A DNA stretch of 49,483 nucleotides from Puniceicoccus vermicola (GTDB lineage Bacteria > Verrucomicrobiota > Verrucomicrobiia > Opitutales > Puniceicoccaceae): NCBI RefSeq assembly GCF_014230055.1, contig NZ_JACHVA010000117.1, positions 1-49,483 of the forward strand, in the 5' to 3' direction. The notes beneath the pieces were generated by a model. That model did not search any database. It was not told the origin of the DNA and saw only the letters and a program-made list of their open reading frames with translations. The translations under genes and the position numbers were made by a program. This document shows positions 1,672-43,449 of this stretch, piece by piece. Numbering within the stretch: the stretch's first letter is position 1; the number at the start of each line of letters is the position of its first letter.

Positions 1672-2444
1672 CTCGTTTGCTTGGCAGCGGCTTCGACAAT
1701 GCCGACGAAGGAGCGGGCTACGAGAGCTGCTCCCCCGATGAGGCCTCCGTCGATGTCGGGCTGGGCGAGAAGTTCGTCAGCATTTTCCGGCTTCATCGAT
1801 CCGCCGTATAGGATGCGGATCTTGTCGGCCTTTTCTTCGCCGACGAGCTCGGCGAGAACGGAACGGATCGCTTTGTGAACTTCCTGTGCCATTTCGGGAG
1901 TGGCGGTTTTGCCGGTTCCGATGGCCCAGACGGGTTCGTAGGCGATGACGAGGTTCTCGGCTTGATCAGCAGTGACGCCTTCGAGTCCTTTGCGGACTTG
2001 GCCCGAGACGATGTCGATCGTCTTCTCGGCTTCGCGCTCTTCGAGGGTTTCCCCAACGCAGAGGATCGGCTTCAGGTTGTTGGCGAGAGCCGCGAGCACC
2101 TTCTTGTTGATGAAGGCGTCGTCCTCGGCGAAGAGGGCGCGGCGTTCGCTGTGACCTAGGATCACGTGCGTGACGAAGAGGCTGCGGAGCATTTCAGCGG
2201 AAACTTCGCCGGTGTAAGCTCCGGAAGCTTCCGGGTTCATGTTCTGCGCGCCCAACTGAATGTTGGATTCGTTGATTGCTTTTCCAACGCTTTCGAGGGC
2301 GGTGAATGGAGGGCAGATGACGACGCCGACGGAGGTTTCGTTTCCGAGTTGGGAAACGATGTCTTCGGTCAGCTCAACGCCTTCACTGGCGTTTTTGTTC
2401 ATCTTCCAGTTTCCGGCAATCAGATATTTGCGGGACTTGCTCAT
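1668..2444 (-). CDS. tpiA: Triosephosphate isomerase
   Basis: Interconverts dihydroxyacetone phosphate and glyceraldehyde 3-phosphate in glycolysis and gluconeogenesis (cytosolic TIM barrel). The protein has 258 residues, normal for the family. Catalytic residues are visible: Lys14 in AGNWKMN, His98 in LGHSERR, and Glu170 in AYEPVWAIGTGKTATP. The phosphate-binding loops ILYGGSMKPENA and GLIGGAAL are near the C-terminus. It lies 20 nt downstream of pgk and overlaps the following hydrolase gene by 4 nt, so the three are almost certainly one transcript. Confidence 0.98.
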   Translation of the reverse strand: MSKSRKYLIAGNWKMNKNASEGVELTEDIVSQLGNETSVGVVICPPFTALESVGKAINESNIQLGAQNMNPEASGAYTGEVSAEMLRSLFVTHVILGHSERRALFAEDDAFINKKVLAALANNLKPILCVGETLEEREAEKTIDIVSGQVRKGLEGVTADQAENLVIAYEPVWAIGTGKTATPEMAQEVHKAIRSVLAELVGEEKADKIRILYGGSMKPENADELLAQPDIDGGLIGGAALVARSFVGIVEAAAKQTS

Positions 2445-2464
2445 AATTTTTTCAGTTTGATGGA

Positions 2465-3664
2465 TTACTCTTGGTCGAGTGCGGCAACGCCAGGAAGGGT
2501 CTTGCCTTCGAGGAATTCGAGGCTGGCTCCGCCGCCGGTGCTCATGAAGGTCACCTTATCGGAGAACCCGCTCTTCTTGATCGCTTTGACCGAATCTCCA
2601 CCACCGATGATGGAGGTTCCGCTGCTGGAGGCTACTGCATCGGCAACCGCGAAGGTTCCTTTGCTGCATTCTGAGATCTCGAAGATCCCCATTGGGCCGT
2701 TCCAGAGGATGGTCTTGGCGCTCGCGATTTCTTCGGAGAAGGCCTTGATGGTTTCGGGGCCGATGTCGACGCCTTCCCAGCCATCGGGGATGTTGCCGGA
2801 AATCGTGTCGGTTTCGGCGACGGACTTTTCCTTAAAGTCCAAGCCCTTGGCGATCAGGTTGTCAGTCGGGAGGAGGAGCTTGACGCCCTTCTCAGCGGCC
2901 TTGTTGATCGCGGCTTTGGCGGTCTCGACTTTGTCGATTTCGCAGAGGCTGTCGCCGACGGTGCGGCCGTTAGCGAGGGCGAAAGTGTAGGCCATCGCGC
3001 CGCCGATGAGCATTGTGTCGGCTTTATCGAGGAGGGAGTCGATGACGGCGATCTTGTCGCTGACTTTGGCTCCTCCGAGAATGACGACGAAAGGATGTTC
3101 CGGGTTTCCGGTTTTCTCCCCGAGATAGGCGAGTTCCTTTTCGATCAGGTAGCCAGCCACTTTAGGTGAAAGAAAATCGCAAACTCCTGCGGTCGAGGCG
3201 TGGGCGCGGTGAGCGGTGCCAAAGGCGTCGTTCACGTAGGCTTCGGCGATCGAGGCGAGTTTTTCCGTGAAGGCCGGATCGTTCTTTTCTTCGCCTTCGT
3301 GGAAGCGGAGGTTTTCGAGAAGAAGAATTTGGCCGGGTTCAAGCGCTTCGGCAGCGGCTTTTACCTTGTCACCGATGCAGTCATCCGTGAAGGCGACGAG
3401 CTTGCCGAGTTTGTTGCTCAGTTCTTTGGCGACGGGTGCGAGGCTCATTTCAGGAACACGCTTGCCCTTCGGACGACCAAGGTGGCTACCGAGGATGATC
3501 TTGGCACCCTGCTCGATGAGTTTGTTGATGGTCGGGAGAGCCGCGACGATCCGACTGTCATCGGAGATGGTGCCGTTGCTATCAAGCGGAACATTGAAAT
3601 CAACGCGGACAAAGACCCGCTTTCCCGCAAGATCGACCGAATCGATGGTTTTTGCTTTCGACAT
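2465..3664 (-). CDS. pgk: Phosphoglycerate kinase
   Basis: Transfers phosphate from 1,3-bisphosphoglycerate to ADP. The protein has 399 residues from the ATG at 3664 (MSKAKTIDSVDLAGKRV). The in-frame ATG 60 nt further upstream would add 20 residues that do not match the family, so it was not used. Recognisable are RVDFNVPLD and GSHLGRPKG in the N-terminal substrate domain, LLLENLRFHEGE, and the C-terminal nucleotide-binding stretch IIGGGDSVKAI followed by FMSTGGGASLEFLEG. It sits between the gap terminator (3735-3780) and tpiA. The terminator suggests that pgk-tpiA-hydrolase has its own promoter in about 3665-3735, but I found no convincing -35/-10 pair there. Confidence 0.98.
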   Translation of the reverse strand: MSKAKTIDSVDLAGKRVFVRVDFNVPLDSNGTISDDSRIVAALPTINKLIEQGAKIILGSHLGRPKGKRVPEMSLAPVAKELSNKLGKLVAFTDDCIGDKVKAAAEALEPGQILLLENLRFHEGEEKNDPAFTEKLASIAEAYVNDAFGTAHRAHASTAGVCDFLSPKVAGYLIEKELAYLGEKTGNPEHPFVVILGGAKVSDKIAVIDSLLDKADTMLIGGAMAYTFALANGRTVGDSLCEIDKVETAKAAINKAAEKGVKLLLPTDNLIAKGLDFKEKSVAETDTISGNIPDGWEGVDIGPETIKAFSEEIASAKTILWNGPMGIFEISECSKGTFAVADAVASSSGTSIIGGGDSVKAIKKSGFSDKVTFMSTGGGASLEFLEGKTLPGVAALDQE

Positions 3665-3734
3665 AATAGTTTGAACTTCTGGTTTTGGAAATTTCTGAAA
3701 GGGAGGTCGAGTCGACCTCTTCATTGTATCTAAA

Positions 3735-3780
3735 GAGAAAAAAGGCCGTCACGGAATTGGAAAATCACCGTGACGGCCTG
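3735..3780 (-). terminator. Rho-independent terminator of gap
   Basis: On the minus strand, perfect 12-bp arms (AGGCCGTCACGG at 3743-3754 with its complement at 3768-3779) enclose a 13-nt loop. The hairpin is followed by a run of Ts, the reverse complement of GAGAAAAAA at 3735-3743. It begins about 57 nt after the gap stop codon. It separates gap from pgk transcriptionally even though the genes are adjacent and co-directional. Confidence 0.92.
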
Positions 3781-3836
3781 AAATCTTAGCACACCTTGAT
3801 CGTCTGAATTAGATCAAGGTCACTGGACACTGTCGT

Positions 3837-4895
<1,059 letters not shown>

Positions 4896-4909
4896 TTATC
4901 TGTTTAGCT

Positions 4910-4938
4910 GATTATCAGAGAAAGTCTCTTTCAATCAA
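4910..4938 (-). promoter_or_regulatory. Candidate promoter for gap
   Basis: On the minus strand, TTGATT (4933-4938) and ATAATC (4910-4915) are separated by 17 nt, about 50-75 nt upstream of the gap start codon. The spacer contains a small palindrome (AGAGA, 3-nt loop, TCTCT). The hexamers are only a moderate match to a sigma-70 consensus and the region is AT-rich, so a chance match is possible. Confidence 0.25.
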
Positions 4939-5030
4939 CAGATCACAGCGCCACAAGGCAAGAGAATAACGCTGGGATTTGTCGTCAGAGTAACTTTCCC
5001 GACGCAGAGTGAGACACAATGATACGACTT

Positions 5031-7469
5031 TTAGGTTCTCCAGAGTCCGCAGGAGAGAGCGGGTAGATAGATCCCATTCGCATTGATTCTGTGTAGTGCT
5101 CCTTCGAGTCCTCCCCGGTTCACCCTTTCCTGGTCGGCGATCTGTATCCATTCGTGCGCCGGACTCCGATGCGGAAGAGGGATCATCGCTGGCTCCAGGT
5201 GTGGGTTGATTGCAAAGAGCATCTGATCCTCTCCGTCAGCTTGATCAGCGTTGTAGAGGCAGGCGATGGCCGAAGAATTTTCCGGTCCGGAAAAAGAGAG
5301 GTAGTTGTCGCGGTGCTTGCCCGGACGGAGAAGGCGGCCGACTGGGGAAAGACGGAGGCGTGTCCACTGGGCAAAATAGTTGGCGGTGCCGGAGTAGTAG
5401 GTGCGCCGTTCGTAGTCGATGGCGTTCAGGTCTCCCCGTTGGTAGGTGTTGTGGATACCTCCTTTGGTTCGGAGTGCGTCCTGTCCAGCAGAGATCATGG
5501 GGATGCCGAGGGACGCGAAGAGGAAGGCCGCCATTAGGTGGGTGCGTCGCCGATCGGAAGGAGTTGGGCTCCACCCTTCGTGGTCGGGGTTTTCGGTGAT
5601 ACGGTCGAGCCAGCAGTAGTCGTCGTGAGATTCGGAGTAATTGACCGTCTGAGCTGGCCACTCCGTGCGGCTGTGGGGTGAGCCGGCGAGGAAGTAGCAG
5701 GCGGCGTCGCGATTGCTGGTGCCGCGGACATATTCAGAAAGAAAGTCTCGGTATCCGTCATTCCATGACGCCCAACCAGTGTCTTTGAGGGCGTCGGCGA
5801 GGTGTCCGCGAAAGCTCCACGGTTCGGAGATCAGAATGAGGTGGGGGAAGCGTTCCTTGAGGGCGGCCTCAATCGCCATGAGTGTAGGCTTGCCCACGAG
5901 GTCCGCGAGGTCGAAGCGGAAGCCGTCCACTCCGTACTGTTCGACGAGGTGTATGAGGCTTTCAATGATGATCCGACGCACCATCGGGGCATCCGTGCGA
6001 AGGTCATTTCCGCAGCCACTCCAGTTCATCAGGTAGTGGTGGGTGTTTAGGTGGAAATAGTAATACTTGTCGAGAAAGAGAAGATTGTTGGGCTCGCCGA
6101 TGTGGTTGTAGACGACGTCGAGAATGACGGTGAACTCCTGCTCGTGCATGGCGCGGACGAGGTCGCGGAATTCTTCTACTTGGCTGGCCTTCTCCGGATG
6201 CTTGGCATAGGTGCTTTCGGGGGAGAAGTAGTTCACTGGCATGTAGCCCCAGTGGTATTCTTCTTTGCTTTGGCTGTCGAATTCCTGAATCGGCTGAAGC
6301 TCGACCGCGTTGATCCCGAGCTCGTGCAAGTAAGAATGTCCACTGCGGACCCACTTTGCCAGTCCGCTGTATCCGAGGCGGTCCTCTTCTTTCATCGGGT
6401 CGGGGACTCGGGCGAGGAGATCGCGCAGATGGCATTCGCAGATGACGAGATCATCCCAGCGGGGTGGGGTGAATCCCGGATCGACGCCTCCTTTGGGAAA
6501 AAATGAGTCCCCGAGAATAATACCTGGCCCGGAGCGGGAGTAGGCCGCCTTCGCGTAGGGATCCAGAATGGCCATATCCGGGTTGAATCGGGTCGAAGTA
6601 TCCGGGCTCTCGCCGTGGACCCGATAGTGATAAAACCATTTTTCGAGATTCCGCCCTACGGATCCTTCCCAGATCCCGTCGGTGGGGCCTGCGAGCTCGA
6701 GCTTCTCCGGGTTGCTCATGGAGGGGTCTTGCTGGAATTCGACCACCACCCGGTTGGCCCGGGGAGCGAAGATTCGGAAAGTCGTCCCCTTACGGCTTGG
6801 GAGAGCCCCAAGTTCGGCATCCGAGTGGAGCTCGAGAAAGGTATGGGTCGGGGGAAGGTGCCGTATCTCTTCGCCTTCTTCTGAGGACCAGATCACCTGT
6901 TCCTGTCCGTCCGTTTCGTAATTCTCGCCGACGGCAAAGGTGAAGATGTGTTGCCCGGTTCTATCGGGATGAAACTCGAGGTTGCAGGCGCCGTTTTCGT
7001 CGAACACGGCGTTGGGGGCGCTTTGAGAGACGTCGAGCCAGGCTCCGTCGCCCGCCTGAAATTTGAAGGTGAAGGTCTGGCTGATGTCGATTTTATCCTC
7101 GGGAATACGGAGAGCGGCAATTTCGATCCCGTTCAAGCGGGTCCGTTGTAGTCGCCATTGTTTTCCTTCTTCGAGGGGGTTCCAATCGTTGAAAGATCCG
7201 GCGACGTAGACGCCTTTTTCGGCGAGCTCAGAAAGTCCTCGTTCGGGAAGCTCGAAAGTGAAAAGGAGCTTTTTGCGAAAGCGGATATACCCGGCCATCT
7301 GGCCGTAGAGGAGCGGGTCGGTCCGCTCCAGACTCTGGAAGGGTCTCATCGGTGGGCCAAAAAAGAGAGGTGGTTTCTCTTTCCGGCTGACCCAGTCGCG
7401 CGTTAGTACGACGAGTCCGGTTTGACTGGATTCCCAGTAGGCTTGAAGGATCTTCGGTTCGCCGCTCAC
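5031..7469 (-). CDS. GH13 alpha-amylase-family glycosidase, pullulanase/isoamylase-like, with two N-terminal CBM48-type modules
   Basis: An 812-residue protein that most resembles starch/glycogen debranching enzymes cleaving alpha-1,6 linkages. Residues about 65-180 look like a glycogen-binding E-set module (VYVAGSFNDWNP at 88-98). Residues about 222-330 look like a second, CBM48-type module (TFRIFAPRANRVVV). The barrel follows with DVVYNH (451-456), nucleophile Asp520 in GFRFDLA, acid/base Glu549 in LISEPW, and Asp616 in YSESHDDYCW. GIPMISAGQDALRTKGG followed by GDLNAIDY resembles pullulanases more than branching enzymes. I see no signal peptide, so it is probably cytosolic. It stands alone between ilvB and gap on the same strand. 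Exact specificity (pullulanase, isoamylase or a relative) is undecided. Confidence 0.85.
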   Translation of the reverse strand: MSGEPKILQAYWESSQTGLVVLTRDWVSRKEKPPLFFGPPMRPFQSLERTDPLLYGQMAGYIRFRKKLLFTFELPERGLSELAEKGVYVAGSFNDWNPLEEGKQWRLQRTRLNGIEIAALRIPEDKIDISQTFTFKFQAGDGAWLDVSQSAPNAVFDENGACNLEFHPDRTGQHIFTFAVGENYETDGQEQVIWSSEEGEEIRHLPPTHTFLELHSDAELGALPSRKGTTFRIFAPRANRVVVEFQQDPSMSNPEKLELAGPTDGIWEGSVGRNLEKWFYHYRVHGESPDTSTRFNPDMAILDPYAKAAYSRSGPGIILGDSFFPKGGVDPGFTPPRWDDLVICECHLRDLLARVPDPMKEEDRLGYSGLAKWVRSGHSYLHELGINAVELQPIQEFDSQSKEEYHWGYMPVNYFSPESTYAKHPEKASQVEEFRDLVRAMHEQEFTVILDVVYNHIGEPNNLLFLDKYYYFHLNTHHYLMNWSGCGNDLRTDAPMVRRIIIESLIHLVEQYGVDGFRFDLADLVGKPTLMAIEAALKERFPHLILISEPWSFRGHLADALKDTGWASWNDGYRDFLSEYVRGTSNRDAACYFLAGSPHSRTEWPAQTVNYSESHDDYCWLDRITENPDHEGWSPTPSDRRRTHLMAAFLFASLGIPMISAGQDALRTKGGIHNTYQRGDLNAIDYERRTYYSGTANYFAQWTRLRLSPVGRLLRPGKHRDNYLSFSGPENSSAIACLYNADQADGEDQMLFAINPHLEPAMIPLPHRSPAHEWIQIADQERVNRGGLEGALHRINANGIYLPALSCGLWRT

Positions 7470-7585
7470 GCCTTTACAGCAACCAGCTGGTAGGCGGTTG
7501 TCAACTGGACATGCTGAGAATTGCGGTGGGTTGAAACGTTTTCGGTACGCTTCCCCACTTCAGGGAAACGAGCGCGGAGCAAAGT

Positions 7586-7625
7586 GAGTGATGACCTGAG
7601 GTCGTCAGGTGCTCGGGGATCACTC
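7586..7625 (-). terminator. Bulged hairpin overlapping the ilvB stop codon
   Basis: On the plus strand, GAGTGAT (7586-7592) pairs with ATCACTC (7619-7625). Inside this, ACCTGA (7594-7599) pairs with TCAGGT (7605-7610) around a 5-nt loop. An asymmetric bulge of about 8 nt against 1 nt separates the two stems. The outer arm includes the ilvB stop codon. No T-run follows on the minus strand, so it is not a classical intrinsic terminator. It may mark an RNA 3' end or be fortuitous. Confidence 0.35.
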
Positions 7626-9410
7626 TGTCAGGATTTCCTTCGCGGACTTACCTTGGGGAATCATCGGAAGAACGTGCTCGGTGTAGGGGACCACTACGTC
7701 GAGGAGGTAGGGGCCATCATGGTCGAGCATCTCTCGGATCGCTTCGCGGAGATCTTCCTTGCGGATCACACGGCGACCTTTGACGCCAAAACCTTCGGCG
7801 ATCTTCACAAAGTCGGGATAGAGACCGTCGATGTTCTCGGGGCTTCCGATGTTTTCTGGATCGCCGAGGATCGTTTGGCCGCGGCAGCCCTGATAGAAAC
7901 GGTCTTCCCATTGCACAACCATACCGAGGTGCTGATTGTTCAGGAGGAGGCACTTCGCGTTGATCTTTTCGATCTTGGCGGTAGCGAGCTCCTGGACGTT
8001 CATGAGGAAGGAGCCGTCACCGTCAATGTCGATGACTTCCTTGTCCGGGAACGCCGTCTTGGCGCCCACAGCGGCTGGGTATCCGAAGCCCATCGTCCCG
8101 AGCCCGAGAGAGCTGATGTAGGTCCGGGGTTCTTTAAAGCGGTAAAACTGGGCCGCCCACATTTGGTGCTGGCCGACTCCGGTCGTAATAATCGCGTCCC
8201 CCTTGGTTTCTTCGTAGAGGGTCTTGATCGCCTCCTGTGGGAGGATGTGAGGGCTTTCTTTGAAGGTGAAAGGGTATTCCTTCTTCCAGCCGTCGAGCTT
8301 GGCCGTCCATTCGGAAAGATCGGGCTTCTCGAACTTGGTGGAGTCGACCAATTCATTCATCCGCTCGAGGGCGTGGCGGATCTCTCCGAAGATTGGGAAG
8401 TGGGCCTTCTTGTTCTTGTGGTGCTCGGAGCGGTCGAGGTCGAAGTGGATGATCTTTGCGTCCGGCGCAAATTTTTCAACTTTACCGGTGATGCGGTCGT
8501 CGAAACGGGCGCCGGCGCAGATGAGGAGATCGCTTTCGCAGACTGCCCAGTTACCAGCGACAGTCCCGTGCATGCCAAACCAGTAAAGAGAGAGTGGATG
8601 ATCCGGATCCATGCAGCCGAGGCCCATGAGGGTGGAGGCTACTGGGACGCCGGTCTTCTCTGCGAACTCGCGAAAAGCCTTCGTGGCGTCGCTGCTGATG
8701 ATGCCTCCGCCTGTGTACAGGACCGGGCGCTTGGCCTTCTGGATGAGACCGAGAACCTGGAGCAGATCATCGTCCGATGCAATCGGAGGCTCCGGGTAAC
8801 CGGGGAGATGCAGCTCGAGGGGGAACTTGGGCTTAAAGACCTCCTGTTGAATATCCTTGGGGATATCGATGAGGACTGGCCCTGGGCGGCCGCTTTGGGC
8901 CACGTGAAAAGCTTCTTTGATGACGGTCGGGAGCTCTTCGGCGGTCAGGACCATGTAGCTGTGCTTGACGACAGGCATGGAGATCCCCAGCACGTCGGTT
9001 TCCTGAAAAGCGCTCTTCCCGATTAAAGTCTGGTAAACCTGTCCGGTGATCGCGACGAGCGGAACGCTATCCATATAGGCGTCGGCGATGCAGGTGATCA
9101 AGTTGGTCGCTCCGGGGCCGCTGGTGGCCATGCAGACGGAGGCTTTTCCTGTCGCACGAGCATGACCGTGGGCCATAAATCCTCCGCCCTGCTCGTGGCG
9201 CGGGAGGATCGTGCGAATCTTTTTGGAGCGGACGAGTGCTTGGTGCAGTTCGAGAGAAGCTCCGCCAGGATAGGCAAAGACTGTGTCGATTCCCTCCCGT
9301 TCGAGGCAGGAGACGACGACGTCGGCACCCATCATTTCAGGTCCTTCCTCATACTGAGGTTGGAACGGAAGAACGGTTTCCGGCGATGGCTTTGCTGTTT
9401 TAGTGGACAT
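7620..9410 (-). CDS. ilvB: Acetolactate synthase, large (catalytic) subunit
   Basis: Thiamine-diphosphate enzyme that condenses two pyruvates to acetolactate (valine/leucine) or pyruvate with 2-oxobutyrate (isoleucine). From the ATG at 9410 it has 596 residues. A further upstream ATG at 9512 would overlap the start of the divergent ymdB gene and add a non-family tail, so it was rejected. Visible: [14 protein letters not shown], the catalytic Glu in [20 protein letters not shown], the FAD/domain stretch [10 protein letters not shown], and the ThDP/Mg motif starting [19 protein letters not shown] with [16 protein letters not shown]. No small regulatory subunit (ilvN) lies next to it: downstream is the GH13 gene. 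It is divergent from ymdB, with 95 bp between the start codons. Confidence 0.95.
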
Positions 9411-12876: not shown

Positions 12877-15561
12877 CTACCAGCTGCGCGGATCGAGGTA
12901 GAGTCGCCAATCGAGGTCGTCGAGCTCCCCCCAGATCCGGAATTCGAAGACTCGCCCAAACGGTTTGAGAAGCATTCCGATTTGGGCCAGAATGGGGAAC
13001 TTGACCGAACCCAATAGCTGCATCTGGGCGTTGAAATCGATGGATTTTTTCGCCATCTCGTAGATTCCAGAGGAGATCAGTTGGGAGCTGGGGCTCTTGA
13101 GAGTCAGATTGGGGAATTCTACGAGTCCACGATTGAGGAGGAAAGTGGAGGAGGCACTTTCGAATTGGAAGGATCCTAACGTGACGGGCAAGGGAAGCTC
13201 TTCTGAAATGCGGGAGAGAATGCCGAGGAGGCGAACGTTGGCGAGGTTTGGCGTGATGAGATTGAACTCGCCGGCCCCGATGAGGCTTTCGGGAGATTCA
13301 AGATCGCCCGAGAATTCGATGGAGAAATCCAGCTTGTGGTCCTCCGGGTCTTGGTCCTTTCCGTGATCGATTCGGTCGCCGACGGTTTTTTTGAGTTGAG
13401 GGACTGCGTCGACGACATGGGCGGGGATGCCGTCGGTAAAAGTGAGTTGAATTGAGTTGCGCCCTTGAGCGGCGCTATCGGGTCTATTGACGATCCATCC
13501 TCTACCGGTTCCTCCTCCGAGCCCAAAGGTGACGGGATCCAGGCGGAGGGTGTCGATCGAGAAAACCGCGGAAAGTTCGAGGTATTCCAGTTGGATGTCG
13601 CGAAAGGTCAGAGGTTGGTCTGTCGAAGCATCGACTTTTAGGTAGTCGCCGGGGGAGTCTTTCCCTTCGATCGGTGGATAGAGAGTTCCTTGAATTTTCA
13701 GATCGGGTGCGCCGATTAATTTGAATTGTGCGAAATGGTCCTCCAGGCTCTCCCCGAAGAGTGGGGCTATTTTGTCGAAGTCCATGGAGGTCTTCAGGTC
13801 GTATTCACGAGAATACACCTCTCGTGTCTCCATATCCAGGAGGACGGCGTAGTAGCCGGAGGCCATGCCTTCCGGGCGGTAGGCATGAAGATCGAGGAGT
13901 TCGAAAAGGTAAGGGAGATTTCGTAAGCGCGCGTAGCCGCGATCGACATGCATTTCTTTGAGGAGAATATTGCGAAACCGAAGGCCCCCGAAAATCTCCC
14001 GTTCATCGTGGTGATCCCAGTCTCCAATGATGGCGAGGTCAGCATAGGGAATTTCGTAAAATTCGAAATCTTTCCAGACTGTGTCCCACCAATCCCTCAT
14101 CCACCCGCTGATGTCCATGGGCAGAAATCCCCCTTTGATCGTGAACTCAAATTCGTTGGAGATAAAATCGTGTCGATAGGTGCCTTGGAGGTGATACTTT
14201 TCCTTTTGCACCGAGAGGTCATCTACTTCGAGGACAAGGTCTCGGGGCAGAATGTTTCCATCGGCTTCAGCGTAGATACCAGTGAACCCCATGATATCGA
14301 AGGCTTCGGTCTCCGCGTGGTATTGAATCGTTTCCGGGATCAGTTCTCCTTTCTGGAAGCTCGTTCTCAGATCAAGGTAGACCCCTTGGTCAAAGGCAAT
14401 GTGATGCTCCCTGGCAAGTGCTGGAACGGCGGGGTGCTTAATGGCGGCATCGATGGGGAGAGTGCCGGTGGCTCTCAAGGTTCCGCTTCTGCGGAGAAGG
14501 TTGACTGTGCCGCCTAGTGCAAAGGGACTCCCGTATAGGCTGGTCTGTCCAGAAAGGGTTGCCGTAAATCCAAGGCCCATATCGATGGAGAGAGTGGGAT
14601 TCTCAAGATTTACGTAATCATTGGAGATTTCGGCGGCGGAAAGTCGGATGTCGGCTCCTGCGATGAAGGCTGCTGAGGAAAGGGTTCCGGGAGGGTCTAG
14701 CCGTAGGTTCGGATTGCTCAGTGTTGCGTCTTCTCCGTAGTAGGCTTTCTCCGACCGAAGTTGGATGGGGCCAAGTTTTAAAAAGTTCTGCGAAACAGTC
14801 ATTGAGGAGGTGAGGCGAACCTCCTTTTCGAGTCTTGCACCGAATGGGAGTTCGACGCGGTCCGCAGAGAGGGAGAGATGGGCCAAGGTTTTTGCGTCCT
14901 CAGTGGCGGAGAGCCGGATGGACAGAAAGGGGTTCTTGAGACGCTGGAGTTCGGATTCCAGGCGGTAGATTTTTTCGAGGATGGGAGGAAGAGGGTCTTC
15001 GGCGTCAACAATTTCATCACTTTCGATCTTACGAATCGACTTGGGCAATGCTCCCGAGGCCGAAATTTCGAGGCCTTCTTCCCAATAAATTCGGGCGTCG
15101 TCGAGTCGCCAGGTATTGTCCTCGCGAATGATGTTGAGTGCTTCGAGAGTGAGAACCGATTCGGAGATGCCGAGGGGCTCGCGGAGGTCGAACAGTTCCA
15201 CATTTTTTGCTTTGAACTGTTCGGGGTTGAAAATGCCAAATACGATGGAGGGGAGGTAGAAGTCGACTTGGATCGACTCGGCGCGGGCGATCTCGCGTCC
15301 ATTGAAGTTTCGAATTTGCAGGTCTTCGAGTTCGATTGTTCCGTCCTCATTCAAATTCGCTGCGCCCACCGAGACTTTATAAAGGTCACCGATTCTGTGG
15401 TTGATGGCCTTCTCCACCCAGGGGGCGGGAATCATTAAATCGCGATGGAGGGAGAGGAAGAGAACCAGTGGAATCTGGATGACTAGGAGAACTCCAAGGA
15501 GGGCGGTGAAGACCCAGAGCAGGCAGCCGACCCACTTGCACTCGCGCTGGCGACAGAACAC
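12877..15561 (-). CDS. AsmA-like inner-membrane-anchored protein
   Basis: An 894-residue protein with one N-terminal transmembrane helix (about residues 11-36) followed by a large beta-rich periplasmic region. The C-terminal part resembles the AsmA-like C-terminal domain: an LGSFQFESASSTFLLNRG segment, then NLTLKSPSSQLISSGIYEM and a closing FRIWGELDDLDW. AsmA-family proteins are thought to be bridge-like or scaffold proteins in lipid transport to, or assembly of, the outer membrane. The start is GTG at 15561, supported by GGAGAGG six nt upstream. It is the last gene of the ABC/GldG/DUF4340 operon, 13 nt after the DUF4340 gene. Substrate and partner are unknown. Confidence 0.75.
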   Translation of the reverse strand: MFCRQRECKWVGCLLWVFTALLGVLLVIQIPLVLFLSLHRDLMIPAPWVEKAINHRIGDLYKVSVGAANLNEDGTIELEDLQIRNFNGREIARAESIQVDFYLPSIVFGIFNPEQFKAKNVELFDLREPLGISESVLTLEALNIIREDNTWRLDDARIYWEEGLEISASGALPKSIRKIESDEIVDAEDPLPPILEKIYRLESELQRLKNPFLSIRLSATEDAKTLAHLSLSADRVELPFGARLEKEVRLTSSMTVSQNFLKLGPIQLRSEKAYYGEDATLSNPNLRLDPPGTLSSAAFIAGADIRLSAAEISNDYVNLENPTLSIDMGLGFTATLSGQTSLYGSPFALGGTVNLLRRSGTLRATGTLPIDAAIKHPAVPALAREHHIAFDQGVYLDLRTSFQKGELIPETIQYHAETEAFDIMGFTGIYAEADGNILPRDLVLEVDDLSVQKEKYHLQGTYRHDFISNEFEFTIKGGFLPMDISGWMRDWWDTVWKDFEFYEIPYADLAIIGDWDHHDEREIFGGLRFRNILLKEMHVDRGYARLRNLPYLFELLDLHAYRPEGMASGYYAVLLDMETREVYSREYDLKTSMDFDKIAPLFGESLEDHFAQFKLIGAPDLKIQGTLYPPIEGKDSPGDYLKVDASTDQPLTFRDIQLEYLELSAVFSIDTLRLDPVTFGLGGGTGRGWIVNRPDSAAQGRNSIQLTFTDGIPAHVVDAVPQLKKTVGDRIDHGKDQDPEDHKLDFSIEFSGDLESPESLIGAGEFNLITPNLANVRLLGILSRISEELPLPVTLGSFQFESASSTFLLNRGLVEFPNLTLKSPSSQLISSGIYEMAKKSIDFNAQMQLLGSVKFPILAQIGMLLKPFGRVFEFRIWGELDDLDWRLYLDPRSW

Positions 15562-15574
15562 AGTAAGCCTCTCC

Positions 15575-17635
15575 TCAGCCGGCAGGTTCTTTGTTCTGAC
15601 CGGAGCCTACACTTTCGGGAGTGGGCAGCACGGGTGTGAGGTTGAGTTCAGACTCCCCTGGAGAGGTTTTGTCGGGGGTTGCAGATTCGGGCGATGATTG
15701 CAGTTCGTCCTGAGAATTTTCCTTTTCGGCCTCTTCTTCGATCTGGGGAGCCGTTTTCTGGGCGGCTTCCAGTGCGGCTTCCTCATCATATTCGTCGGGT
15801 AGGGGCCGAGTCGGGAAAAGGTCTTCCCAGGCCTCAATAATCGTTTGCGGGAGGGTGAAGGTCACGTCCTTCTCCTCGGAGCCGCCTCCTTGGAGAGTGC
15901 CTTCAATCCGTTCGGTGAGGTAGTATTTTTTGGTGACGACAGTGGAGTCGCCACTGCCGGGAAGGACGACTTCCGCCTCCAGTAGGTATCGCCAAGGAAT
16001 GGTTCTGTCGGCTTCGATTTTGAGTCCGTCGGTGAAAGTTGGCGAAAGGTAAGAATCTACCCGGAAGTTACGCAGCTGCTTGAGGAGGGTAACGAAAGAG
16101 GTTTTGGGTGGCTGGTCCGGATCGTCGAGCTCACCGAACGTCCAGGATTTTCCACCCTCGCCCAGCGTGCGATCAAGGAGAATTTTCTCTGTATCGAGAT
16201 CCCTGACCACAACCGAGCGGATCTGCCCAGTGTCGGGAATTTGGTCGAGGAGCCGGAAACGATAGGCGAGAGCGGAGACTGGCAGGTCGCGGATGATGTC
16301 CATCGGCACAGCGTAGACGAAGGGTTGGCCCTCAACCTTGGCGTAAATGAGCCGGGTGTCCGGGTCTAGGTCGCCGAGAAGGAGTTTATGGTTGTTTTCG
16401 CCGATGATTTCCACGGTGCGCTGTGGGTCATTGAGTCCGTATTCCCGGAGGTCCGAGTCGGAGGGCGCGTCGCTGATAAATTTTTTAGCGCGGAGGGTGA
16501 TGAGAGATTCGACGGTTTTCGTCAATACGCCGGGATCGGCTGGGTAGCGCACGGGTTCGACCTCTGCGCCGGAGGCGCTGACCTGCCAGGTCTGGTTTTC
16601 GAGTTTCTGCAGGCTGATCGTCCGGTCTCCCGATCCGATTTGGAGACTGGTGACGAGGGGGACGCGGAAGAGGAAAAAGGACTTCTCGCGAAGGTTGGTC
16701 AGAGCGTCGTTGAGTGTGAGGAATGCTTCTTCGGGAACGGTGACCACGGTGGGAATGCCTTCGATCTTGCCGTAGGCGTTGCCTTCTTGGTCCGGAACCG
16801 GTTTGCCGAGTAGAAAGGTTCTACGGGTGCCGCCATCTTCAAGGGAAATTCTCATCCGGGGCTCGACGAGTCCCGATTCGCTTGGAGAAATCTGAGTTTC
16901 GGGGATGAGGGAGACGACCGATGTTTCCAGAATTCGCTGGAGGCGGGAGTCGACGGCAGGTGCGCTGGCGCGGGTCTGGATCGGAGCTTCAAACATCCAT
17001 CCGTCCTCAATTGCGGCGAGCCGAATTTGGAGGCTCCGACCGTTACCTGGCTGGAGGGAGATCTCCTTGATCCCAAAGAAGTCCATGGTGAAGAGGTTGC
17101 GGCTCCGGAGGTCCTGCAGGTCGAGGGCCACGGAGCGGACGACTTCCTCATCGACGACGAAGACTTCCTCGCCTGAAGGTCCGAGCAAGTAGAAGCGTCC
17201 GCCGACATCGGTGGGCGATCCGATCTTGATGGTCGTTGTTTTTCCATCACGAACGAATGAGATGACGAGAACCGGGGTATCGAGGCCGTAGTCGGCGAGG
17301 GTCTGGTTGTTTCGCTCGATGTCCTCCATTGTGAAGCGGATATCTTTGCGGAGAAAAAGGAGTGCGCGAAAGATGCGGTCGATCGCGTTGGGATTGGCTC
17401 GCCAGACGATGGGCTCTTCGAGCATCCAGGAATCGTTGCGGCGGGTGAGCACTCGGCGTTCCGGAACGGCTTCCCCCGTGATTTCGATGCGGGAGCTTTC
17501 TGCAATCGAAGAAGCCAGAACCGGTTCGGCCCGTCGTTGTTCCGGGGCCCCGTCGTTGCCGGCTTCGAGGTAATAGATAACTCCGAAGGCCAAGAGGTTC
17601 AGCAGGCCGAGGAAAACTGTCAGTTTTAGTCTCAT
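15575..17635 (-). CDS. DUF4340 domain protein, membrane-anchored
   Basis: A 686-residue protein with an N-terminal membrane anchor (LTVFLGLLNLLAFGVIYYLE) and repeated DUF4340-type beta segments. Examples are the SSRIEITGE...WMLEEPI and DLRSRNLFTMDFFGIKEISLQ units, and again near residues 330-450 with LITLRAKKFISDAPSDSDL and YGLNDPQRTVEI. The final 70 residues are acidic and low-complexity, probably disordered. DUF4340 proteins commonly accompany GldG-type ABC cassettes, as here: it starts 3 nt after the gldG-like stop and is followed 13 nt later by the AsmA-like gene. Molecular function is unknown. A periplasmic accessory role to the ABC complex is an inference from the gene order. Confidence 0.82.
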   Translation of the reverse strand: MRLKLTVFLGLLNLLAFGVIYYLEAGNDGAPEQRRAEPVLASSIAESSRIEITGEAVPERRVLTRRNDSWMLEEPIVWRANPNAIDRIFRALLFLRKDIRFTMEDIERNNQTLADYGLDTPVLVISFVRDGKTTTIKIGSPTDVGGRFYLLGPSGEEVFVVDEEVVRSVALDLQDLRSRNLFTMDFFGIKEISLQPGNGRSLQIRLAAIEDGWMFEAPIQTRASAPAVDSRLQRILETSVVSLIPETQISPSESGLVEPRMRISLEDGGTRRTFLLGKPVPDQEGNAYGKIEGIPTVVTVPEEAFLTLNDALTNLREKSFFLFRVPLVTSLQIGSGDRTISLQKLENQTWQVSASGAEVEPVRYPADPGVLTKTVESLITLRAKKFISDAPSDSDLREYGLNDPQRTVEIIGENNHKLLLGDLDPDTRLIYAKVEGQPFVYAVPMDIIRDLPVSALAYRFRLLDQIPDTGQIRSVVVRDLDTEKILLDRTLGEGGKSWTFGELDDPDQPPKTSFVTLLKQLRNFRVDSYLSPTFTDGLKIEADRTIPWRYLLEAEVVLPGSGDSTVVTKKYYLTERIEGTLQGGGSEEKDVTFTLPQTIIEAWEDLFPTRPLPDEYDEEAALEAAQKTAPQIEEEAEKENSQDELQSSPESATPDKTSPGESELNLTPVLPTPESVGSGQNKEPAG

Positions 17636-17638
17636 GGG

Positions 17639-19123
17639 TTAGCGTCGGATGATTGCGACCAGGATGCCAATCAGCGCCAGTGCCGCTGCGGGAGTGATGA
17701 GCCAGAGGAGAAGGTTCCGCAGTTCGGTCTGGCTGAGGATGATCATATAGCCACGGATATCCTTGGCGGCGATGTTGATCTCACTGCCTTGATCCATGCA
17801 CCAGTTCAGAGCACTGAGAAATAGGAGTCGGTTGCCGAAGGCGTCGATTCGCGAGTTGGTGATGAAATCAGCATTTCCAATGACGAGGATGCGTCCGCCT
17901 TGAACGGCCGAGAGATCGAAGTCGAAGGAAGTTTCGGCCTGCCGCTGCGAGGCCACAGCGATGGGAACGGGACCTTTTAAGTCTGCCCCTTCATCGAAAG
18001 AAATCGTAGATCCGGGGCGGAGCTCGCTCTCGGCCCAGCTCTGTTGGGAGCTCAAGAGAATGGTTTCGAGCTTGAGCGTGTCAGGATTGCGGGCCTCTTC
18101 CGGAGCGGGGAGGATGGGGCGGGGCAGTCCGAATAGAACTGTGACCCCCATATTCCTGAGGAAATTTCCGACCGGGTGGTCGGTAAAATCGCGGATGATG
18201 AGGTCGCCGGTGGCCGATTGGAAATCGGGGCCAACGTCGACCACGATCCGGTCGTCGATGCGGATACCCCATTCGAGTGCCAGTTCTTCGAGTCCGGTTG
18301 TTTCGCCAGGTTCCAGGAGGGCGAGAAGACTTCCGTTCTCCTCAGAGAGATAGTCCCGCAGCAGGCTCGCCTCTCTCTCGCGGAAACGGGTGGCTGGGGC
18401 GGTAATGACGACGGCTCCAGCATCCTCGGGGATACGCGCGTAATTGGTCAGCTCGATCGCTTCGACCGAGAATCCTCGTTCCTGGAGAAACGAGTTCAGG
18501 CGTGAGAGACCTTTGAGGGGGTCGACACTGTCGAGATCGAATTCGCCTTGGCCGACGAGGAAATAGACGACGCTGTTGCTCTGGCGTGTAACTTGAAGAA
18601 TCGCGGAAAGGAATTCCGATTCCCCGCGGAAGGATCGCATCTTCCCCTCTTCGAAAGTGTAGAGGGAGTCGATCGAGATTTGCTTCAGGCGATTGCCGGA
18701 AGTGATGAGAATCGAGTTTTGGGTAGAGATGTTGTATCGACCGAGGATTTCCCGGGCTCGGTTACGCTGCCGGAAGACATCAATGAACTCCACGTTGATG
18801 TTGCCGTTTCCATCCGTGTCCGAAAATAGCTGGATGTTGGACAGCAGCTTCCGCAGGTCCCGAAGAACCCGACGATTGGTTTCGTCGGTTTCGATGTCGG
18901 GGATGATGATGTAAATATCGACGGGTTTCTCGACTGAAGAAAGGTAGGCCTCCGTTTCGGGCGAGAGGGAGAACTTGCGATCCTGAGTGAGGTCGCGTCG
19001 TTCAAAGTGGCCGGAGCCCAAGTGGTTGATCGCTGCGATCAGGCTGATGCAGAGCAAGACTTGCAGGAAGGCATTGAGGCGCCGCCAACGATTCGTACGC
19101 CGAAAATCATCGCGTGTAGTCAT
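17639..19123 (-). CDS. GldG-like ABC-type auxiliary transport protein
   Basis: A 494-residue protein with a membrane helix near the N-terminus (about residues 17-35) and another at the very C-terminus (LLLWLITPAAALALIGILVAIIRR region). Between them lies a soluble GldG/ABC_transp_aux domain: DLTQDRKFSLSPETEAYLSS is the characteristic opening, then PVDIYIIIPDIETDE, and VVYFLVGQGEFD further on. GldG and the permease GldF work with the ATPase GldA in Bacteroidota gliding. Related cassettes without gliding genes are widespread and of unknown cargo. The gene overlaps the permease stop by 4 nt (ATGA), so a stoichiometric complex with the two upstream products is likely. Confidence 0.85.
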   Translation of the reverse strand: MTTRDDFRRTNRWRRLNAFLQVLLCISLIAAINHLGSGHFERRDLTQDRKFSLSPETEAYLSSVEKPVDIYIIIPDIETDETNRRVLRDLRKLLSNIQLFSDTDGNGNINVEFIDVFRQRNRAREILGRYNISTQNSILITSGNRLKQISIDSLYTFEEGKMRSFRGESEFLSAILQVTRQSNSVVYFLVGQGEFDLDSVDPLKGLSRLNSFLQERGFSVEAIELTNYARIPEDAGAVVITAPATRFREREASLLRDYLSEENGSLLALLEPGETTGLEELALEWGIRIDDRIVVDVGPDFQSATGDLIIRDFTDHPVGNFLRNMGVTVLFGLPRPILPAPEEARNPDTLKLETILLSSQQSWAESELRPGSTISFDEGADLKGPVPIAVASQRQAETSFDFDLSAVQGGRILVIGNADFITNSRIDAFGNRLLFLSALNWCMDQGSEINIAAKDIRGYMIILSQTELRNLLLWLITPAAALALIGILVAIIRR

Positions 19124-19884
19124 GCTTTTCTTTCAACGAGAATGACGGAGAAAATGAGGAAGAAAATCGAGCCCGACAGATAGTAAACGAACGGGCGGGA
19201 GTCGATGATCCCGGCACTAAAGTCGAGGAGGTGCTCGAAGGTCTGAAGATATTGGAAAAGGCTGTTCAGGCTGCCAACCGGGCCCGTCTCGGGCAGGGGC
19301 ACTTCGAGTAGGAGACGGCTTCCGGCGATGAGAAGGAAGAGGCCGGTGAAGCAGAGCATCCCCGCGACCAGTTGCGATCGGGTGAGGCTGGAACAAAAAA
19401 TCCCGAGAGCGATGAAGAGGGTGCCGCTCAGGGCGACAAAGAGATAGCCTCCAAGGAGGGAGGCGGGATCGAAGAGGATGGTTCGCGCCTGATCGACCGA
19501 GGTCATTTCACTCGCGAGCAGCGGGAAAGCGATGGTGCAGCTCCAAAGGAAGAGATAGAAGAGATAGATCGCGCAAAACTTCGCGAGGACGACGACAACC
19601 GGTCCGGTTGGGGTCGTGAGGAGTGTTTGCAGGGTCCCGAGTCGGCGCTCTTCGGCCACGCTCCTCATTGTCAGTAGGGGGACGACGAAAAATGCGGGAA
19701 TCCAGAAAACCCGAAAAAACTGGGTAGCCGGGGTGTCTTCTTGCGGCGCGAGGGTGAAGCTTTTCAGGATTGCCCAGTAAATCAGCCCCATCAGCAGAAG
19801 AAAGAGAACCCCTGCGACATAGCTCGACGGAGAAAAGAGAATGACCCGGATTTCGTGCCGGAGAAAGTTGATGAAATTTCTCAT
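19120..19884 (-). CDS. ABC-2 type permease, GldF-like
   Basis: A 254-residue membrane protein from the ATG at 19884 (MRNFINFLRHEIRVILFSP). A longer upstream frame lies inside the ATPase gene and was rejected. About six hydrophobic segments are visible, starting with SYVAGVLFLLLMGLIYWAIL. RSVAEERRLGTLQTLLTTP is the conserved cytoplasmic element of ABC-2 permeases that contacts the ATPase. The start overlaps the ATPase stop by 4 nt, and its own stop overlaps the GldG-like start by 4 nt. It would form the membrane channel of the cassette. Whether it exports or extracts a substrate is unknown. Confidence 0.88.
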   Translation of the reverse strand: MRNFINFLRHEIRVILFSPSSYVAGVLFLLLMGLIYWAILKSFTLAPQEDTPATQFFRVFWIPAFFVVPLLTMRSVAEERRLGTLQTLLTTPTGPVVVVLAKFCAIYLFYLFLWSCTIAFPLLASEMTSVDQARTILFDPASLLGGYLFVALSGTLFIALGIFCSSLTRSQLVAGMLCFTGLFLLIAGSRLLLEVPLPETGPVGSLNSLFQYLQTFEHLLDFSAGIIDSRPFVYYLSGSIFFLIFSVILVERKA

Positions 19885-20903
19885 TCGGAGAGTTCCTCCT
19901 CCATGTCGCGGGGTGCAGCGGAAGGGTCTCCTCCCTCTTTCCACGTCCGCTTCGTGGCGGCGAGGAAGATGTCCTCCAGCGAGGCGCGGCGAATGCGAAT
20001 CTCTTGAATGACGGGTAGATCCGGACCTTGCAGCGATTCGATGATGCGGGGGACGAGGTTCGTGTTGCAGTTGGAGGAAAAGGTGATTCGGCGGACGTTT
20101 CCTTCCGGCTCGCGGTAGGAATCCTGAAGGACGAGGCTATGGTCCACGGTTTTGATCCGTTTCTCGACTTCGGAGAGAGAGCCTTCGACTCGCAGTTCGT
20201 AGGTCTGGCCCGGCGAGAATACCTCCCGCAGCTCGGATCGAGTGCCGGCGGCGACGACCTGCCCGCGATTGAGGATTACCGAGCGGTCACAGACTTTCTC
20301 GATCTCCGGCAGGATGTGACTGGAGATGACGAGCGTCATCCGGCCCCGCAGTTGCTGGATCATTTGGCGGAAACCGAGAATTTGATGCGGATCGAGGCCG
20401 ATCGTCGGTTCGTCAAGGATGACAATCGGGGGTTCCGCGAGAATGGCATCGGCGATACCGACGCGCTGCCGGTATCCTTTACTGAGGTTGCCGATTAGTT
20501 TGCGCTCGGTCCCATGTTTGAGGTCGCAGAGCTCCAGAACCTCGTCGATGCGGGTTTTTCGGATTTTCCGGGAAAGCCCTTTAATCCGGGAGCGGAAGCG
20601 AAGGTATTCAGTCACCCGCATGTCCTCGGGGAGAGGGTTGTTCTCCGGCATGAATCCGATGAGGTGGCGGATCGCGGCTGGTTCTCGGGCGACAGATCGT
20701 CCGGCGACCCAGGCTTCTCCTGATGAGGCGCTCAACAGACCCGTGAGAATGCGCATGGTCGTCGATTTTCCGGCGCCGTTCGGGCCGAGAAATCCGACAA
20801 CTTCTCCCGCACCGACCTCGAAGGAGATCCGATCAATTGCGCGGTTGGGGCCAAATCGCTTCGTTAGGTCGACGGCCCGAATGCTGGGGACTAGAGATAC
20901 CAT
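19881..20903 (-). CDS. ABC transporter ATP-binding protein, GldA/CcmA-like
   Basis: A 340-residue ATPase from the ATG at 20903 (MVSLVPSIRAVDLTKRFGPN). The longer frame upstream runs into the divergent promoter region and beyond and has no family similarity. Walker A GPNGAGKST at 40-48, signature LSKGYRQR at 140-147, Walker B VILDEPTIGLDP at 161-172, and the H-loop His in VISSHILPEIE. The C-terminal 100 residues are the extra domain usual for ABC-2 ATPases of the GldA/NatA kind. It heads the five-gene operon and is divergent from the importer ATPase gene at 21062, with 158 bp between the starts. Confidence 0.93.
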   Translation of the reverse strand: MVSLVPSIRAVDLTKRFGPNRAIDRISFEVGAGEVVGFLGPNGAGKSTTMRILTGLLSASSGEAWVAGRSVAREPAAIRHLIGFMPENNPLPEDMRVTEYLRFRSRIKGLSRKIRKTRIDEVLELCDLKHGTERKLIGNLSKGYRQRVGIADAILAEPPIVILDEPTIGLDPHQILGFRQMIQQLRGRMTLVISSHILPEIEKVCDRSVILNRGQVVAAGTRSELREVFSPGQTYELRVEGSLSEVEKRIKTVDHSLVLQDSYREPEGNVRRITFSSNCNTNLVPRIIESLQGPDLPVIQEIRIRRASLEDIFLAATKRTWKEGGDPSAAPRDMEEELSE

Positions 20904-29310: not shown

Positions 29311-30648
29311 TCAGTGGGCTTCGCCGGCTTCGACGATCGTGAACATGAGCTCAGCGGAAGAAACGACCTTGTCGCCAACTTTGCACTTACCCGCGGCCAC
29401 CGCGAGTTTGTTACCTCGCTTCTTGATTAGACGCACATGGATCGCGATCTGGTCACCGGGCTCAACGGCAGTACGGAACTTCACCTTGTCGCAGCTCATG
29501 AAAAACGCGATCCGGTTCTCGGCCGTAGTGTGGCGTAGCATGAGAATCCCCGCGGCTTGAGCCATCGCTTCGATCTGAAGCACACCAGGCATCACAGGCC
29601 GCCCTGGGAAGTGACCTTGGAAGTAGGGTTCGTTGATCGTGACATTCTTCACCGCGACCAGTTCGTCGTCTGATTTGATCTCGATCACCCGGTCGATCAT
29701 CACAAAGGGATAGCGGTGCGGGATCGTGTCGAGGATCCGGCGAATATCCAGAGCCTTTTCATTCGCTGTGATCGTGGGCTGGCTCGCCGAACGTTTGGTG
29801 GGTTTCTTTCCGGAAGACTCTTCCCTGAGCTTCTCAGCCAAGGCTCGAGTAAGGCCGGCATTGAGAGCGTGACCCGGGCGAACCGCAACGATGTGTGCGT
29901 TCAACGAGCAGCCCAGCAGCGAAATGTCGCCCAGGATGTCCAGAATCTTGTGACGAACGAACTCGTCCTTAAACCGGAGGGGTTCCTTCGAGAGAATCTT
30001 GTCCCCTTTGATCACAATCGCACTGTCGAGACTCCCTCCTTGGATCTTTCCAAGCTTCAGGAGCTCTTCGATGTCTTCGTAAATAGTAAATGTGCGGGCC
30101 GAAGCGATCTGGGCCATGTAGACATCCGGATCGATTTCGAGAGTGAGGTGCTGCGTATGGATCCCGCGGTCATCGGAAGAAGTGCAGGTAATCTTCAGCT
30201 TGTCGGAAGGCAGAGCGATGATGGATCGATTTCCCTCGGTGATGGAAATCGGTTCCTTCAAATTAAATACCTTTCTCTCTTTCGTCTGCTCAATCGGCTC
30301 CGCTTTCTGGATCAGATTGACGAAATGCTTCGCAGATCCGTCGAGGATCGGAGGCTCACTCGCACCCATTTCGATAATCGCGTTATCGACGGCGCAGCCA
30401 CTCAGAGCGCTAAGGATGTGCTCGACAGTGTGAACCTTCGCGTGTCCGGAAGAGAGGGTAGTGCTCCTGACCAGTTCGGTGACCAGAGACACATCCGCCT
30501 TGAGCTCCGGCTTCCCGTAGAGGTCCGTGCGTCGAAACACGATACCAGTGTCTTCCGGTGCCGGCTTAAGAGTAAGGGTAACTTCTTCCCCGGTATGGAG
30601 CGATTTTCCGCTCACCGAGGATTCCCGCAGAATCGTCCTTTGTTTCAT
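29311..30648 (-). CDS. lpxC/fabZ: Bifunctional UDP-3-O-acyl-N-acetylglucosamine deacetylase / 3-hydroxyacyl-ACP dehydratase (LpxC-FabZ fusion)
   Basis: A 445-residue fusion. Residues 1 to about 280 are LpxC, the zinc deacetylase that commits to lipid [11 protein letters not shown] (His73, Glu76, His77), [17 protein letters not shown], and [10 protein letters not shown]. After a short linker rich in Ser/Thr/Lys, residues about 300-445 are FabZ, the fatty-acid dehydratase: [13 protein letters not shown] with catalytic His, and the Glu of [20 protein letters not shown]. The fusion is known from Bacteroidota, Chlorobi and several PVC bacteria. It couples two enzymes that compete for hydroxyacyl-ACP. 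The gene is first in an operon with lpxA and divergent from the RAYT gene at 30782. Confidence 0.96.
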
Positions 30649-42600: not shown

Positions 42601-43449
42601 ATGAGTATGGAGGGCAGGCTTGCACGCAATGGAGAAAAGGTTGAAGCGAATGTCGATGCGAAGGTGAATAATCTTCCTACTGGGGAGTTGCTGCAGCAAA
42701 TGAATCCACGGGAGACTCCGGCCATCGAAGGTTTGGCGACCGTAGGAGCTTCCTTTCAGGGGAGTGCAGGTTCATTGGAAGATCTTCCCAATTGGATGGT
42801 CGGAACCTTGCAGGTCGGTGTAAAGGACGGGGTCATCCGATCACTGAAGCCAGAGGCACGTGTGACCAAGTTTGTGAATGCAGGGTCTATCGCGGGTGCT
42901 CTGCTCGGATCTTCGTTGAAACGCCCTGGGGTATCTGCGCTCGGGGAAATAACAAATCTCTTTAAAGAAATTCCCTTTTCCAAGCTGAGCGCAACTCTGG
43001 AGCGAACGGACGAGCGGGAGACTGTGGTCGATTCGATTCTTATGTTGGGGGCCTATTTCTCCATGCAGGGCTCCGGGAAAGTCGAATCGGGAGATCTGGA
43101 TCAGATCCCAGTGACCCCGATGCAATTGCGCCTGAATTTGGGAAGCAAGCCCCCACTAACCGAACCTTTGGGGGTTCTCGCTTTACTGGGACCGAATACG
43201 GACGCCAATGGTTATCGGGAATGGAAACAGCCTATTGAGATGACTGGGACACTGGCTAAGCCCGACGTCGGTGAACTCTGGGGTATGCTGATTGGCGCGG
43301 TGGAAAGAGCGGCAACCATGAGCGAAAAAGATTTGGCGAAGGAACGACAAGCGCAAGGCCTAGAGCCCGCGGAAAAGAAGAAAAAGCCTTCCACGGAAGA
43401 GCAGATCGAGCAGGGTGTGAACAGCATTCTCCAGATGCTCGGGCGATAG
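39643..43449 (+). CDS. Large AsmA-like / bridge-type inner-membrane protein
   Basis: A 1268-residue protein with an N-terminal transmembrane helix (LLWLTALFVLLLVLVGVLLIP) and a long beta-rich periplasmic region. Recognisable AsmA-type features: VDYIHLGPGGLKLENLEFAG near the start, the later PAIEGLATVGASFQGS and LQVGVKDGVIRSLKPEARV, and SGKVESGDLDQIPVTPMQLRLNLGS near the end. Two low-complexity Ser/Thr/Pro linkers (about residues 622-645 and 920-940) divide the body. The C-terminal 70 residues are charged, with KKKKPSTEEQIEQG. Such proteins are proposed to move phospholipid or assist outer-membrane assembly. It is a second AsmA-like gene, distinct from the one at 12877. Confidence 0.7.
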   Translation: MRKFLLWLTALFVLLLVLVGVLLIPAAQKSLFLAFASNEERTVSVDYIHLGPGGLKLENLEFAGSGILARVPMAEAKFSWGALLDKRLKIQYLRVEDLFVKMEESEKKQKSTDESKDEGFEVPRDFEGILGQSSPIEIQELSVTGKVSTPTNDEMAFSISGADIVPGKRGLLQLSLQPSEGALETLPQVEISIPVQIAQAGELESIMLSGEIVSRVKEAPGVLDLSGSVKPTETGEAYRIEITSEKLLSGGEISLVGNWAKEANQLGLELTAKGDNLDFLQSFVSQPLPAVSFRVKGMTELSPGEGFRSADLRFLVDADKDVLPQFGEPIRAEGVVKVSAGEDSFTFEEFDVSVAPPQDAQPWVALHLLEPQVFRTTDPLEIPQNRFASVDIFIPNQFLNSLTEEWNFSDFKAKSSFVGSEDGVVLESAEPWEVSVRRAGEMSQPVQLSILPHLTYQDDGLNASAEIQFEGEGKTLEAKVSADAGIASLPAASFKASLKGYFGAVATLAPNPEDIPKGLVSSEWTGSFGENLEVSGAFSVTELVSGSMGPADVNLKVREFSLSQQDPMTVKGILDLDWASQGRASSVSGLSLNVVQQENDRWALTVDQGMVVADPRAFNTTEAPSSSTTGASHSPADSGLPDVALLEGAMDLPSMPIDLLGINLKGRILMPEGDRDFEISLADWVPAQEGSFALDLNSAGKQGVNAVHGKVAGQVRFDEAGFPNRVKASAWLKDVPVGEETMPLYGELTFSPDSPVDPIVFLLRTSEDGVPILQAKATIAEDRATATAEADFANWLKSPLRKLIPNVATGHLKADAALSSEGVSSRVVVDALTPLDGFESYDLNLNGMLSSLTPLSAKGGLVLNDAKDKKSDLNVVADGDLEKSLKLNLEGNRLDLEALEGFARVWSGAGGSDEISEKTEPGQTSGPEGNATWPLESMPFEVDGSFSIGQVVPKDMPSIKALDGRFFANTEKATVRVSADWLENSSMSMEGRLARNGEKVEANVDAKVNNLPTGELLQQMNPRETPAIEGLATVGASFQGSAGSLEDLPNWMVGTLQVGVKDGVIRSLKPEARVTKFVNAGSIAGALLGSSLKRPGVSALGEITNLFKEIPFSKLSATLERTDERETVVDSILMLGAYFSMQGSGKVESGDLDQIPVTPMQLRLNLGSKPPLTEPLGVLALLGPNTDANGYREWKQPIEMTGTLAKPDVGELWGMLIGAVERAATMSEKDLAKERQAQGLEPAEKKKKPSTEEQIEQGVNSILQMLGR

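Follow-up and report, generated by a model that had tools for sequence, protein, structure and literature searches.

What drives phospholipids to the outer membrane is an open question. The leading carriers, the AsmA-like proteins, have no known energy source. In E. coli and P. aeruginosa, genetic evidence points to a role of AsmA-like proteins in the outward transport of glycerophospholipids (PMC10900882). In Veillonella parvula, the AsmA-like protein TamB and the ABC transporter Mla were proposed to act antagonistically and not in one path (PMC10665443). Here, an operon of Puniceicoccus vermicola is described that combines an ABC unit of another type with an AsmA-like protein. No description of this operon was found in the literature searched, which contained few subscription papers.

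The analysis was based on a stretch of 49,483 nucleotides (contig NZ_JACHVA010000117.1), referred to as the window. At base level, the minus strand was found to carry, in this order, the genes for an ABC ATPase, an ABC-2 permease, a GldG-like protein, a DUF4340 protein and an AsmA-like protein (Table 1). The spacing that had been reported in the preliminary description was reproduced in every detail: the ATPase/permease and the permease/GldG junctions overlap by 4 nt each (ATGA), the GldG stop codon is followed after 3 nt by the DUF4340 start, and 13 nt separate the DUF4340 stop codon from the GTG of the AsmA-like gene, with the GGAGAGG motif 6 nt upstream of the GTG. The ATPase has an intact Walker A motif (GPNGAGKS), signature (LSKGYRQR) and Walker B motif (IVILDEP), and the permease scored 38.8 bits with the Pfam profile ABC2_membrane_3 (cut-off 31.6) and has six to seven membrane helices predicted from hydropathy. 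Intact ATPase motifs together with an ABC-2 permease identify the pair as an ABC-2 type ABC transporter. A permease of the LptF/LptG type was sought in the operon and is absent from it, the only permease being ABC-2; LptF/LptG-type genes are present on other contigs of the same genome. The window also contains a gene for LpxC fused to a FabA/FabZ-like domain (29311-30648, minus strand), and thus lipid A synthesis is encoded here.

Table 1. Positions of the operon genes and of the ribosome-binding site spacer in the window.
Feature	Position	Strand	Remarks
ABC ATPase, GldA/DrrA type	19881..20903	-	340 aa; Pfam ABC_tran 4e-29
ABC-2 (GldF-like) permease	19120..19884	-	254 aa; Pfam ABC2_membrane_3 8e-10
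GldG-like protein, ABC_transp_aux, GIFT-type domain as in IFT52	17639..19123	-	494 aa; Pfam 1e-19
DUF4340 protein	15575..17635	-	686 aa; Pfam DUF4340 2e-52
Spacer with GGAGAGG, ribosome-binding site of the AsmA-like gene	15562..15574	-	13 nt
AsmA-like protein	12877..15561	-	894 aa; GTG start

The best NCBIfam profiles of the first three proteins were GldA, GldF and GldG, and this is the point in favor of the operon encoding the GldAFG transporter of gliding motility or type IX secretion. All three proteins stayed far below the equivalog cut-offs, however (TIGR03522 270 of 402.6 bits, TIGR03518 102.8 of 288.5 bits, TIGR03521 60.7 of 389.9 bits). A second GldA-GldF-GldG-like cassette of the same genome, on contig C83 (L097, G000:C83:36000-50000, positions 5050-8605), is the closer relative, with 154 versus 103 bits for GldF and 88 versus 61 bits for GldG; no AsmA-like gene was seen beside it in the stretch read. 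In addition, no gene for gliding or type IX secretion was detected in the set of window ORFs on which Pfam was run, in line with what the preliminary description had stated. A role in gliding or type IX secretion is therefore highly improbable, and, judged from the profile scores, the Gld names denote distant kinship only.

The GldG-like protein, which matches IFT52 of the GIFT-domain family, has a membrane helix at each end and a middle part that is predicted to be periplasmic. Sugar binding has been proposed for GIFT domains (PMC7226087). The DUF4340 protein scored 178.5 bits with PF14238, above the cut-off, and contains three repeats detected by Pfam, an N-terminal membrane helix and a C-terminal tail of low confidence. 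Its structural model (mean pLDDT 82) did not match any solved fold convincingly. The fold searches returned sliding clamps at a TM-score of 0.11 and one thioesterase-like domain (Z 8.3, rmsd 3.7, 114 residues), and homology was accepted for none of them; in addition, neither the DUF4340 profile nor the permease matched the sequences of solved structures. DUF4340 was hardly mentioned in the literature searched. In Verrucomicrobium spinosum one DUF4340 gene was found by TraDIS to carry an essential region (PMC12283558). Each of six related genomes contains two DUF4340 genes, a long and a shorter one, and therefore the essential gene was not assigned to the operon described here.

According to hydropathy, the GldG-like, DUF4340 and AsmA-like proteins lie largely outside the membrane, and a periplasmic orientation was assumed from their families. 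The envelope location that had been suggested for these parts is thus in agreement with the predicted helices, one at the N-terminus of the DUF4340 and the AsmA-like protein and one at both ends of GldG, and the operon gives DUF4340 a place in the cell envelope. The large periplasmic parts of GldG and DUF4340, held by membrane helices, and the lack of a substrate-binding protein or a soluble periplasmic carrier among the five genes would also suit a mechanical coupling comparable to the mechanotransmission of FtsEX or MacB-type systems. In that case ATP would be used to move GldG/DUF4340 and thereby to gate or re-position periplasmic proteins, including the AsmA-like protein, and no substrate would be moved. 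As the permease matches ABC-2 exporter families and not the FtsX/MacB type, this explanation is unlikely.

The assignment of the last protein as AsmA-like was supported by its predicted fold and a C-terminal motif. With Pfam, the window protein matched YhdP over its C-terminus at 18 bits, below the cut-off of 46; among 22 orthologues, YhdP was matched by 16 and AsmA by 2 (E of 0.01 or less). A single membrane helix was predicted at the N-terminus, where hydropathy peaks at positions 20-38 and the model has a helix from 9 to 39. The AlphaFold model (mean pLDDT 82, pTM 0.62) is predicted to contain about 54 strands, and 56% of the residues beyond position 40 are in strands. The hydropathy alternation along the strands was 2.43, compared to 1.60 (sd 0.18) in shuffled sequences, as would be expected of a sheet with one greasy face, and amphipathic strands of other folds show the same. 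A Foldseek search placed ApoB100 and LptD on top and TamAB lower, all with TM-scores of 0.21 or less, and these weak matches mainly indicate a large beta-sheet. The list obtained with VIA-align consisted mostly of outer-membrane barrels with Z of about 6-9, values usual for models that lack a clear match; kinship with such barrels was rejected in favor of a generic beta-sheet. The profile of the AsmA-like protein did not match the sequences of solved structures. The protein is thus modelled as one inner-membrane helix followed by a long amphipathic beta-sheet with a weak likeness to ApoB100, LptD and TamB. A second AsmA-family protein is encoded in the same window, 24 kb from the operon (39643-43449, plus strand, 1268 aa). 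It scored 30.3 bits with PF05170 (cut-off 29.8), has a DUF748-like N-terminus, and its gene adjoins a gene with a bifunctional-nuclease domain.

That the operon serves envelope transport is a supported hypothesis. Its direct basis comprises the order and conservation of the genes, their domains, and the topology and fold predicted for the proteins. From these we infer that the proteins form a complex, in which direction they work and that the substrate is of a lipid type. The ATPase and the ABC-2 permease would form an inner-membrane ABC unit, and the GldG-like and DUF4340 proteins would be its membrane-anchored periplasmic partners. Together they would load or gate a lipid or a lipid-linked glycan. 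The AsmA-like protein would be an inner-membrane-anchored beta-sheet groove, in principle long enough to cross the periplasm, which would then pass the substrate toward the outer membrane. The structural model, with its N-terminal helix, richness in strands, alternating hydropathy and matches to ApoB100, LptD and TamAB, speaks for such a groove, while the low TM-scores of these matches and the second AsmA-family protein in the window speak against this reading. In our judgment, the chances are evenly balanced that the operon is ancient within the Verrucomicrobiota and serves the envelope with the described division of labor.

The source organism belongs to the same class of Verrucomicrobiota as Verrucomicrobium and to a different order. 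A profile search detected the AsmA-like gene in 71 of the 87 genomes of the order of the source organism, and in 63 of these 71, as counted by hand from match tables, it followed GldG or DUF4340 downstream and shared their contig and strand. The exceptions were G008, G014, G015, G018, G020, G040, G054 and G081, and a contig break could explain the case of G020. The 2.3-Mb single-contig genome G080 of the order yielded no match to AsmA-like, DUF4340, GldG or LptF/LptG; it was not counted as a loss because a data problem is likely. Twenty linked regions of the order were read gene by gene, and 19 of them contained all five genes in order, while the ATPase was not detected in the remaining one. 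In a sample of the class, from which fourteen linked regions were read gene by gene, linkage was found in 53 of 108 newly sampled genomes having both genes; these represent 25 families, 23 of them from other orders. In other classes of Verrucomicrobiota, 23 genomes from 10 families were linked (again counted by hand; fifteen loci read gene by gene). The AsmA-like and GldG profiles had been built from the order of the source, so that absence elsewhere is less certain. Because the gene order recurs in tens of families, the five-gene arrangement is far beyond chance.

The presence of the AsmA-like gene in the operon of related genomes, on which the preliminary description had made its proposal depend, was thus found across the phylum. 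This linkage on one strand, seen in 63 of the 71 genomes within the order, in 23 families from other orders of the class and in 10 families from other classes, argues for a common machine, and so does the gap between DUF4340 and the AsmA-like gene, which had a median of -4 nt and was within 30 nt in 44 of 51 linked loci (with gene starts set mechanically to the longest ORF). In a tree built with FastTree from 82 AsmA-like proteins, which was used only for the clustering of linkage and cannot tell gain from loss, linkage required about 9 changes, compared to 25 in shuffles, and linked rows occurred in all main parts of the tree. This fits an old linkage that was lost several times.

The main rival to a common machine is the co-regulation of separate functions. 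The core of ATPase, permease, GldG and DUF4340 would have an envelope task of its own, for example the export or positioning of a glycan, a lipoprotein or a lipid, the AsmA-like protein would supply phospholipid independently, and the operon would serve to match the amounts. The separable distribution of the genes is compatible with this. Three Verrucomicrobiaceae regions of the class sample contained the core without an AsmA-like gene, and none was seen behind the core in 21 named loci, mostly of Verrucomicrobiaceae and several of them cut by contig ends; not a single Verrucomicrobiaceae locus that was read had the AsmA-like gene in the operon. The AsmA-like profile did not match in eleven reduced genomes of 0.8-1.0 Mb, all of which carry LptF/LptG-type genes. 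One of these reduced genomes (G009) keeps ATPase-permease-GldG-DUF4340, and in three (G031, G061 and G074; loci L098, L184 and L099) GldG-DUF4340 were kept and no permease was recognised alongside. An AsmA-like gene hidden behind DUF4340 was considered for the reduced genomes and rejected, the next genes encoding pyruvate-ferredoxin oxidoreductase, MnmA and a MurG-like protein. The gene that precedes GldG in L184 encodes a RodZ-like helix-turn-helix.

A large clade of other orders has the AsmA-like gene away from the core. Among the genes adjoining unlinked AsmA-like genes, no candidate for a conserved substitute partner occurred in more than 3 loci. At one unlinked locus (L173 of G238), an ORF for a 224-aa ABC ATPase of another type lies 23 nt before the AsmA-like gene (2133-5278, minus strand). 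Genome G015 has retained permease-GldG, DUF4340 and AsmA on three separate contigs. These cases, namely the core without AsmA in cis or without the whole family and the frequent unlinked AsmA-like genes, all weigh against a common machine and for co-regulation, and the retention of the scattered genes in G015 also speaks for co-regulation. In contrast, G090 (L165, L182) has the DUF4340-AsmA pair on one contig and ATPase-permease-GldG, followed by RecJ, on another, and this pairing away from the ABC genes favors the machine. The tight spacing has also been conserved for very long, beyond what co-regulation usually needs. Taken together, co-regulation is a realistic possibility, short of an even chance. 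Since core genes occur without AsmA in reduced genomes and AsmA is unlinked or scattered elsewhere, the AsmA-like protein is a frequent but non-obligate partner of the core. In genomes that lack it or encode it elsewhere, the core must work by itself or together with a different AsmA-like protein.

If the ABC unit and the AsmA-like protein do work together, it is tempting to speculate further that an ATP-driven lipid or glycolipid bridge across the envelope was ancestral to the Verrucomicrobiota, in which the GldAFG-type ABC unit would energise the AsmA-like groove via GldG and DUF4340. This stronger version is rather doubtful. If true, it would provide, to our knowledge, the first example of an AsmA-like bridge with a dedicated pump, and it would bear on how AsmA-like transport is powered. 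The operon is a good candidate for a predicted pump-coupled lipid bridge, and its phylum-wide combination of an AsmA-like protein with an ABC unit offers a concrete and genetically testable candidate for powered lipid transport.

In its layout, the operon is analogous to the lipopolysaccharide bridge Lpt, in which an ABC transporter is coupled to a periplasmic beta-groove bridge, but the protein families differ, and the genome has LptF/LptG-type genes elsewhere. As in the GldA-GldF-GldG of Flavobacterium, an ATPase, a permease and a GIFT-domain protein are encoded as a three-gene cassette. In contrast to that system, DUF4340 and AsmA-like genes are added, the scores are below the equivalog cut-offs, GldG is shorter (494 aa versus a 552-position model), and gliding genes were not seen in the window. 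The AsmA-like protein resembles the E. coli and P. aeruginosa proteins TamB, YhdP and YdbH in its N-terminal inner-membrane helix and its elongated beta-rich groove, both predicted, and a YhdP/AsmA-type C-terminus occurs in orthologues; PMC10900882 describes no ABC partner for that group, and the window protein remains below the full Pfam cut-offs. The genetic evidence on the outward transport by this group is consistent with a machine of the kind proposed here. A further point in its favor is the mlaEFD-tolC-tamB operon of the diderm V. parvula, a precedent for an operon that unites genes of an ABC lipid transporter with one for an AsmA-like protein (TamB); there the partners are the MlaE permease, the MCE protein MlaD and TolC, whereas the window has an ABC-2 permease, a GldG-like and a DUF4340 protein (PMC10665443). 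The combination of an ABC transporter with an AsmA-like protein in one operon thus has a precedent, and the set of partners is new within the literature searched.
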